From Halocalculus aciditolerans (lineage in GTDB: Archaea > Halobacteriota > Halobacteria > Halobacteriales > Halobacteriaceae), in NCBI RefSeq assembly GCF_014647475.1, contig NZ_BMPG01000001.1, positions 186,001-250,000 of the forward strand: a stretch of DNA of 64,000 bases, read 5' to 3'. Under the pieces are notes generated by a model. It did no database searches. It had not been told where the DNA came from and saw only the letters and a program-made list of their open reading frames with translations. This document shows positions 14,977 to 26,320 of the stretch, in pieces. Within the stretch, counting starts at the first letter, position 1. Each line of letters starts with the position of its first letter. A program made the translations under genes and the position numbers.

Positions 14977-15375
14977 ATGCCGGCCCGGCGGACCCGTAGA
15001 CTCCTCGACCTCGCGTACTACGCGGCCGCCGTCACCGCCCTGCTCACCGCCGTCTTCGCCGTTCCGAGTTTCGCCCTCTTCGACGGCTGGCTCACCGTCA
15101 AGTACGGGCTCTTCGTCGCCGGCTTCCTCCTCTTCGGCTACTCGCTCTTCCGCCTCCGACCCGTCGCGCCCTACTCGGACGGCGAGAAACTCCAAGTCGC
15201 CGCCGAGGACGAAGACGGCTTCCTCCAGCGCACCGTGAACCGCCTCCCGCCGCTCCGAGACGACCCCCTCCCGCCCGACGGCCGGTACGGCGACGGCGTG
15301 AAACTCTTCGCCGCCAGCCTCCTCGTCCTCGTCACCTCCTTCCTCATGGAAGTCGCGTTCGGCGTGGCGAAGTAA
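14977..15375 (+). CDS. Small membrane protein at the end of the dpp operon (DUF7555-like)
   Basis: 132 residues with three hydrophobic stretches (about 12-32, 38-58 and 108-128) and a hydrophilic middle rich in Pro/Asp/Arg. The ATG follows the dppF stop with no gap, so it belongs to the operon. I believe this is a haloarchaeal family catalogued as DUF7555; the name is from memory. No function is known; position suggests an accessory role in peptide uptake or simple cotranscription. Confidence 0.65.
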   Translation: MPARRTRRLLDLAYYAAAVTALLTAVFAVPSFALFDGWLTVKYGLFVAGFLLFGYSLFRLRPVAPYSDGEKLQVAAEDEDGFLQRTVNRLPPLRDDPLPPDGRYGDGVKLFAASLLVLVTSFLMEVAFGVAK

Positions 15376-15949
15376 ACGCGGTTCTCGGCCGCATCGCGGC
15401 CGAGAACCGCGAGTAGGCGAGCGGTGGCGAGAACGACGTTCTCGCTCGCAACCGGAACGCGAAGCGTTCCGGTGACGGGAGCGACCAGGGTGGGACGCGA
15501 AGTGGTTCGAAACGGCGAAGCCGTTTCGTCATGCCGAGAGACGCGGAGCGTCTCTCGTAGCACGTCCCACTTGCCGTACGGGCGACTCGTGGGTCGCCCG
15601 TACAACGCAGGGAGCGACACGCGAGCAGCGCGGTTCGGAGCGACGACCGCAGGGGGGAGTGAGAACCGCGAAACGGCGAGCGGGGAGCTATGCGACCCGC
15701 GAGCCAGCGCGACTCCGGAAGGAGCGAGCGACTGAGAACCGTTTCCTCATCGGGAGCGTTGCCGAGCGCGACATGCCGCTCGCCCCTTTCAGCCGTGATG
15801 CGGCAACGGCTGTCTGATTGTCCGAATCGCGCGGCTCGCGGCTTCGCCGCTCGCGTTTTCGCGGTTTTCAGCCGTTTCACGGCTGAAAACCGCGTGTGTT
15901 TCGGTAGCGAGGCGTCAAGTTTTACCGCGTCTGGCAGTGATACGCGGGT
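15376..15949. repeat. Gene-free 574-bp train of perfect hairpins
   Basis: No credible gene. The stretch is a succession of perfect inverted repeats with tiny loops: 15377-15411 (16-bp arms, loop ATC), 15429-15443 (7 bp), 15452-15472 (9 bp, GAA), 15508-15528 (9 bp, GAA), 15535-15557 (10 bp, GGA), 15576-15603 (11 bp, TCGTGG), 15838-15850 (5 bp, TTC) and 15860-15894 (16 bp, TTC). The first sits 2 bp after a stop codon and can act as a terminator. Modules recur at 25957-26320. The last 50 bp hold the promoter of the next gene. Confidence 0.75.
15377..15411 (+). terminator. 16-bp perfect hairpin after the dpp operon
   Basis: Arms 15377-15392 and 15396-15411 are perfectly complementary (CGCGGTTCTCGGCCGC), loop ATC. 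It begins 2 bp after the stop of the last operon gene. There is no U-tract, so the terminator role is inferred from position. Confidence 0.55.
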
Positions 15950-16483
15950 ATGGTGAAGGACGCGCCGGAGGAGAGCGGCGACGAGCACGGATTGGTGTCC
16001 GAGGCAGCGAAGAAGGACGCGTGGTCGCAGACGCTGGAGGACATGACCGCGCTCGCCGACGAGTACGAGGCGGAGGGGTGGGAGACGATTCGCGTCCACG
16101 TCGGGCAGGTCGGCTGCGAGTCGGTGGACGTGGGCGAGTCGGACCGGTTCGGGTTCGTGCACGTCGTCCCGGGGGACAAGGCGGACGCCATCGAGGCGGC
16201 CGTCGAGGACGCCGGCTTCCCGCAGTTCGACGTCTACCGGAAGGAGGTCGAAGGGACGGTGTTCTTCGTGCTCGTGCTCCTCGACCCGGCGACGGAGACT
16301 GCGGTGTTCATCGCGGCGTCGTACAAACTCGGGGACGCGGAGGGCGTCGCCGTCGCCGCCGAACGCGAAGGCGTCGTGTTCTCGCATCTTCAGCGCCTCG
16401 ACGGCACGCACGTCGCGTCCTTCGAGCACGAGGCCTACGAGAAGTTCTTCCCCGACATCGACCGCCTCCTCCCCGAGGAGTAA
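15950..16483 (+). CDS. Conserved haloarchaeal protein (DUF7529-like)
   Basis: 177 residues, acidic, soluble. Predicted alpha/beta with WETIRVHVGQVGCES, RFGFVHVVPGDKADAIEAAV, TVFFVLVLLDPATETAVFIAASY and a C-terminal KFFPDIDRLLP. I recognise it as a widespread haloarchaeal hypothetical (I believe DUF7529) with no known function. One internal cysteine only; no metal site or catalytic motif is obvious. It stands alone after the hairpin spacer. ATG at 15950. Confidence 0.65.
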   Translation: MVKDAPEESGDEHGLVSEAAKKDAWSQTLEDMTALADEYEAEGWETIRVHVGQVGCESVDVGESDRFGFVHVVPGDKADAIEAAVEDAGFPQFDVYRKEVEGTVFFVLVLLDPATETAVFIAASYKLGDAEGVAVAAEREGVVFSHLQRLDGTHVASFEHEAYEKFFPDIDRLLPEE

Positions 16484-25956: not shown

Positions 25957-26320
25957 CGTGGCTCGGAGACGAGCGAAGCGAGGAGTGAGAACCGCGATGC
26001 ACACGAACGGCGACCAGAGTGGGACGCTTTGCGTCCCGCTTGCCGTACGGGCGACTCATGGGTCGCCCGTACGACGACGGGAGCCGTGAGCCCGCGGGTA
26101 ACGAGGAGCGTGCGAGAATCACGGTAAACACGAACGATGGCGGGAAAGTCGTTCTCGCTCGCAACCGGAGCGCGCAGCGTCCCGGTGACGGCGGAAGGAC
26201 GAGCCGTGAGCGACCTGGCTCGATGCTTCGCGCTGGCTCGCGTGTCGCTCCTTCCAGTCGCTCCCGCTCGCGGTTTCGGGGTTCTCACTCGGCCGCTTCG
26301 CGGCCTCGCTCCGAACCGCG
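25957..26320. repeat. 364-bp gene-free spacer with mosaic hairpin element
   Basis: Convergent-gene spacer with hairpins at 26021-26037 (GGGACGC, loop TTT), 26045-26072 (GTACGGGCGAC arms, loop TCATGG) and 26291-26305 (GGCCGC, loop TTC). Two blocks are shared with 15376-15949: the 11-bp-arm hairpin and a 20-nt identity (CGTTCTCGCTCGCAACCGGA, 26150-26169 and 15437-15456), but in swapped order. Ends in CCGAACCGCGTTAGGCC like the spacer at 1800-1925. No gene seen. Confidence 0.7.

Follow-up and report, generated by a model that had tools for sequence, protein, structure and literature searches.

In the literature on haloarchaeal REP-like repeats, the relevant description is that of Haloquadratum (PMC3119063). 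The SMR-A elements of Haloquadratum walsbyi (HqIRS42, HqIRS43 and HqIRS55) are transposase-free, bear inverted terminal repeats and insert without target duplication. They are about 110 bp long, reach high copy numbers, share more than 95% identity within a type and prefer the near-terminal palindromes of IS605-type elements and of PATEs, and their mobiliser has been called 'enigmatic' (PMC3119063). PATEs themselves are short non-coding elements with near-terminal palindromes and without inverted terminal repeats, the terminal-only forms measuring 52 bp (PMC3119063). Bacterial REP/BIME elements consist of palindromes tagged by GTAG or CGTC at one end, and the GTAG class goes along with a Y1 (RAYT) transposase (PMC3733652).

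The window analyzed here comprises 64,000 nucleotides (G000:C1:186001-250000) of a home genome of 3.38 Mb in 27 contigs. It features a 574-bp spacer that is free of genes, as the initial annotation had it, with DUF7555 (14977-15375, plus strand) bordering it upstream and DUF7529 (15950-16483, plus strand) downstream. Along the plus strand, seven perfect hairpins follow each other, their arms being 8-16 bp long: 15377-15411 (16-bp arms, loop ATC), 15427-15445 (loop GAC between 8-bp arms, alternatively 9-bp arms around one loop base), 15451-15473 (10-bp arms, loop GAA), 15508-15528 (9-bp arms, loop GAA), 15535-15557 (10-bp arms, loop GGA), 15576-15603 (11-bp arms) and 15860-15894 (16-bp arms, loop TTC). 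The train is thus real, and so are the common 16-bp arm length and the common base stem CGCGGTT/AACCGCG of its first and last members. Two details of the initial annotation need correction. The five loops it named, ATC, GAA, GAA, GGA and TTC, are all present, but its term "three-base" does not apply to the six-base loop TCGTGG of the sixth hairpin (15587-15592), and the eighth of its inverted repeats is an 8-bp pair (15629-15636 with 15663-15670, spanning 15629-15670, plus strand) around a loop of 26 nt. A TTTTA stretch about 25 nt upstream of the DUF7529 ATG, within window positions 15915-15949, would suit the promoter of a leaderless transcript, so that transcription of DUF7529 may not depend on the repeats.

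Could such a train arise by chance in GC-rich DNA? The window as a whole contains 36 perfect hairpins (arms of at least 8 bp, loops of 0-8 nt), which is in the range of 26-42 found in third-order Markov copies and would be in line with chance. From the rest of the window, however, only about 0.26 hairpins are predicted for 574 bp (Poisson P ~1e-8), two of the seven have 16-bp arms, and the modules described below are found again elsewhere in the genome and in other members of the order. This recurrence refutes coincidence, the probability of which we consider practically nil, in agreement with the initial annotation.

The train is no single element but a mosaic of several dispersed repeat families. 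When the spacer was used as a BLAST query, 115 matches were obtained in the home genome, and apart from the self-match each covers one part of it; these parts recur at other loci in varying order and orientation. Our work on the home genome covered the matched loci plus five 20-kb samples. We distinguish five modules, all given here on the plus strand. M4 (15377-15411) is the first hairpin, CGCGGTTCTCGGCCGC-ATC-GCGGCCGAGAACCGCG, with the same base stem CGCGGTT/AACCGCG as M5. It begins one base past the TAA stop of DUF7555 (15373-15375); M4-like hairpins also directly follow stop codons at loci L013 and L027, and a near-identical one is present at L030. M1 (15425-15478) is a 54-bp double hairpin, GCGAGAAC-GAC-GTTCTCGC and ACCGGAACGC-GAA-GCGTTCCGGT joined by the linker TCGCA, of which nine copies from the home genome were aligned. 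Its host is an M5-type tail, GCGAGCGG|GAGCGACC; the insertion context reads GCGARCGG|CGACC or |GAGCGACC and is uninterrupted at L070 and L027. M2 (15486-15607 including M3, outer boundaries approximate) is likewise a pair of hairpins with a five-base linker, namely GTGGGACGC-GAA-GCGTCCCAC, linker TTGCC, GTACGGGCGAC-TCGTGG-GTCGCCCGTAC and AACG, the first hairpin being split by M3. Full-length relatives of M2 are found in G127, G018 and other genomes, and the copies in the home genome hardly vary, too little for an analysis of covariation.

M5 (15629-15729) consists of a long-looped hairpin, CGCGGTTCGGAGCGA..GAGTGAGAACCGCG, and a tail, GCGAGCGGGGAGC..GCGACCCGCGAGC. Dozens of partial matches to query positions 234-357 exist in the home genome, where the exact M5 pattern occurs 17 times; it is present in 19 of 146 genomes. 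M4 and M5 combine the constant CGCGGTT/AACCGCG base stem with inner arms that vary, and in most cases a tail of the GCGAGCGGGAGCGA type comes next. A further dispersed piece, GCGGCTCGCGGCTTCGCCGCTCGCG (15821-15869), runs into the last hairpin and is matched elsewhere in the genome at query positions 446-499. The last hairpin (15860-15894), CGCGGTTTTCAGCCGT-TTC-ACGGCTGAAAACCGCG, has an M4-like base stem and matches M4 in opposite orientation (91%). A second mosaic resides in a convergent spacer of the same window (25957-26320); it has CGCGGTT-type edges, ends at a TAA stop and contains an M2 with uninterrupted first hairpin (26020-26073) as well as a decayed M1 (26130-26198). Genome G090 contains a doubled M5 (CGCGGTTCGGAGCGAGCGCGGTTCGGAACGAACGAAGTGAGTGAGAACCGCG) in many copies that are nearly identical, a pattern that suggests a recent burst.

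M3 (15503-15562, plus strand) is a 60-bp double hairpin, TGGTTCGAAACGGC-GAA-GCCGTTTCG, linker TCATGC and CGAGAGACGC-GGA-GCGTCTCTCGTAGCA, situated between G15502 and C15563, and is matched by covariance model R1 at 15502-15563 with 73 bits. Haloarchaeal plasmids provided the first examples of such repeats, including one (L083) that lies at the 3' end of a tnpB gene. In that copy, from Salinirubellus (L083:1495-1554), the annotated TnpB frame enters M3 and stops at a TGA of the TGATGA linker. The general form of M3 is 54-66 bp long and reads TSGTT-CGA..TCG-TSATSA-CGA..TCG-AACSA, with inverted terminal repeats TSGTTCGA/TCGAACSA that contain one conserved mismatch. The copy in the window ends in TCGTAGCA instead of TCGAACSA and may therefore be old.

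The model R1, built from 12 sequences, detects M3 in 127 of 146 Halobacteriales genomes. It occurs there in many unrelated contexts and in both orientations, with about 40 sites in the low-GC genome G035 and about 14 in the home genome; copy numbers per genome are often to be read as at least the number among the candidates scored. M3 was not found outside the Halobacteriales, to which all 19 positives among 120 sampled genomes of the phylum belong, nor did phage records yield a match. In 104 distinct rows, 98.8% of the arm cells pair, and 404 two-sided changes stand against 143 in shuffled alignments and no more than 37 when partners are slid. These rows were fitted to the model and include both strands of some copies, so that their independence is overstated, and a smaller alignment made without the model gives the same picture. 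The initial annotation had called for a search for further copies and for compensatory changes in the arms, in the absence of which the train would be a local accident. With 115 matches in the home genome, M3 in most genomes of the order and covarying M3 arms, that judgment does not apply. Our literature survey, which covered mainly openly accessible journals, yielded no order-wide double-hairpin repeat of the M3 kind.

The insertion sites can be read to the base. In the window, the first hairpin of M2 reads GTGGGACGCGAAG ... CGTCCCAC, with M3 placed exactly between G15502 and C15563, while this hairpin is uninterrupted in nine other M2 copies of the home genome. Copies of M3 at TnpB-type ends lie between GCCTCGGGG and CTTGACCCCGAGGC. 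Provided that M3 inserts without target duplication, the empty site is predicted as GCCTCGGGGCTTGACCCCGAGGC (GCCTCGGGG^CTTGACCCCGAGGC), and this target was fixed ahead of the search, with at most one mismatch allowed. It is the palindrome at the ends of TnpB/IS605-type transposons. Of 146 genomes, 75 contain it, and none contains the reversed control sequence. The empty site equals the exactly joined flanks, that is, M3 inserts without target duplication. The same flanks, AGAACGGGAGTCCACGCGAAA-GCCTCGGGG|CTTGACCC, are empty in L164, L168 and L172 and filled in L115, and in the home genome L024 (TTTATTG|CGAGCG) represents the empty version of L151 and L152. Altogether, 91 of 99 readings show G|C at the junction, many sites being read on both strands, so that the number of sites is about half; these readings stem from a strict regular expression, a looser one having given ragged boundaries. 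Folding energies below the 10th percentile of control sites apply to 23% of M3 junctions versus 10% expected. Our expectation of palindromic M3 targets throughout held only in part, since a minority of junctions lie in palindromes. We also considered the double hairpin as an obligatory part of TnpB ends, which is ruled out as the uninterrupted end is common. A dispersed repeat located right after stop codons, TTTTTATTG-CGAGC[hairpin]GCTCG-ATAAAAACCTGGACTAAAAGCC (L024:1340-1400, L151, L152 and L146), has been entered by M3 at G^C; the T-run on one side of its hairpin and the A-run on the other give it the look of a two-way terminator.

M3 is not only inserted into other repeats but is itself interrupted. 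Its linker is split by a double hairpin at G000:C2:492471-492586 (L156/L163), and a longer train splits another copy at G000:C1:745974-746148 (L069). The split copies at L069 and L156 form trains of four to seven hairpins.

Template switching at palindromes is an established mutational mechanism, and perfect arms could in principle be the by-product of quasipalindrome correction by template switching, the train having grown by local duplication. Arms that are almost always perfect are what template switching gives. On the other hand, the modules are common to distant loci and species, and the insertions are unit-sized, have the same ends and leave base-exact empty sites, which contradicts such an origin of the units and renders this reading highly improbable. 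Template switching may still keep the arms perfect alongside mobility.

The gene order ABC transporter-DUF7555-DUF7529 is conserved in relatives; one scan of genome contigs for DUF7529 relatives found none. In 24 relatives the spacer between DUF7555 and DUF7529 spans 15-264 bp, mostly 37-73 bp, when the furthest-upstream start codons are taken; a 25th relative was left out because of an implausible hit position. None of the 24 spacers contains the CGCGGTT core or these repeats, and a single 8-bp hairpin was found in all of them together. The short, repeat-free state of the orthologous spacers indicates that about 500 bp of repeats accumulated in the home lineage, and an accumulation in one lineage argues against a conserved RNA gene at this locus. 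The plus-strand RNA fold of the spacer is far more stable than that of shuffled sequences (z = -10.2) and the M3 arms covary, as would be expected for a structured non-coding RNA. However, the orthologous spacers hold none of the structure, Rfam returned no match to the spacer above any family's gathering score, and the scatter of M3 over unrelated contexts in either orientation is that of a repeat. The structured RNA proposed in the initial annotation is thus contradicted for this locus, and as an explanation we regard it as extremely improbable. ARAGORN detected no tRNA in the spacer.

A further possibility is that the repeats are selected transcript-end structures, which reside after stop codons and end or stabilize transcripts or insulate neighboring genes. 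Repeat-bearing spacers of the home genome are convergent in 19, tandem in 15 and divergent in four cases compared to a background of 23, 78 and 23, counts that rest on a simple codon-usage gene finder. Of 45 M5 edges, 19 directly abut a stop triplet, versus 45 of 3929 other CGCGG sites; 15 of these 19 stops are TAA and 12 close a coding-like open reading frame, with TAA|CGCGGTTCGGAGCG at L002, L003, L008, L009, L016, L020, L029, L063 and others. The high stability of the spacer's RNA fold would also suit such a function. But the orthologous junctions in 24 relatives lack the repeats, and selective removal of insertions from other positions predicts an equal bias. M5 may either enter at stop codons or bring its own stop, with only in-frame insertions near gene ends surviving. 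Judging from position and structure, a role of the repeats in transcript ends is possible, and some M5 copies could serve it alongside mobility; as the explanation of the train we consider transcript-end selection unlikely.

Very probably, then, small mobile palindromes without genes have accumulated into a nested pile-up specific to this lineage, and M3 is one of them, inserting at G|C without target duplication. Small palindromic units would land beside and inside each other in one gene spacer. M3 would enter between a G and a C, a recurrent target being the end palindrome of TnpB/IS605-type elements and its target in this window the hairpin of another small repeat, M2. As the units are hairpins and enter hairpins and linkers, repeated rounds of insertion would be enough to build the train. 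We infer a transposition-like process, presumably driven in trans by an enzyme that acts on hairpin or single-stranded DNA.

No transposase could be linked to M3. A spread of bacterial-type REP/BIME repeats by a RAYT (Y1) transposase would fit short, intergenic, clustered palindromes of high copy number, and the initial annotation had compared the train with BIMEs. This likeness holds as far as the dispersed intergenic mosaic of palindromes, the copies elsewhere and the covarying M3 arms are concerned; it fails in that no constant end bears GTAG or CGTC as a tag and a Y1/RAYT gene is lacking, the home genome yielding no PF01797 match. Among the 146 genomes, 127 contain M3 and 77 contain Y1, so that at least 50 M3-bearing genomes are devoid of Y1. 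A resident Y1 transposase is therefore not required for the presence of M3, though it may have been active in the past, and RAYT-driven spread appears very unlikely. Going beyond the nested pile-up, we tentatively suggest that M3 is an undescribed, order-wide double-hairpin mobile DNA of less than 70 bp that inserts at G^C into extruded or single-stranded hairpins by way of a non-Y1 enzyme and acts against TnpB/IS605-type elements through their end palindromes, a reading that we consider less likely than not.

With nested insertion, a puzzling hairpin train becomes a readable record, and an exact, testable insertion rule is at hand for a repeat that is present in most sampled haloarchaeal genomes. 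A puzzle of 2011 from a single genus, in which the mobiliser of small mobile repeats was called 'enigmatic', is widened to apparently a whole order, and small mobile repeats are tied to the ends of TnpB elements. In TnpB elements the right-end hairpin forms part of guide RNAs. Our observations also advise caution: orthologous spacers should be compared before hairpin-rich haloarchaeal spacers are called RNA genes or terminators.

How do these repeats relate to described families? M3 shares with REP, BIME and REPIN elements a palindromic structure, dispersal over intergenic sites and clustering into mosaics (PMC3733652, PMC2817692, PMC3116915), and like a REPIN it may be viewed as a pair of inverted hairpin halves. 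It differs from REP/BIME by its ends, GTSGTT/AACSAC, which are neither GTAG nor CGTC, by its presence in a home genome without Y1 and by its entry into other repeats at G^C. M1 and M2 resemble terminal-only PATEs in having two near-terminal hairpins within about 55 bp, with no transposon with the same ends identified; M3 is set apart from PATEs by its inverted ends, and the IS605-type end palindrome GCCTCGGGGCTTGACCCCGAGGC is a recurrent target of M3. With SMR-A, M3 has in common that it is transposase-free and short, has inverted terminal repeats, causes no target duplication and reaches high copy number. It also targets IS605-type palindromes at the GCCTCGGGG|CTTGACCCCGAGGC sites, though this is not true of all M3 sites. 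It deviates from SMR-A in its length of 54-66 bp versus about 110 bp, in its double hairpin with arms that diverge by paired changes versus more than 95% identity, in its order-wide distribution and in that only part of its targets are palindromic. On the basis of described features rather than sequences, M3 thus appears to work like an SMR-A, and we do not claim membership. As a whole, the train has less in common with bacterial BIMEs than with the Haloquadratum repeats SMR-A and PATE.
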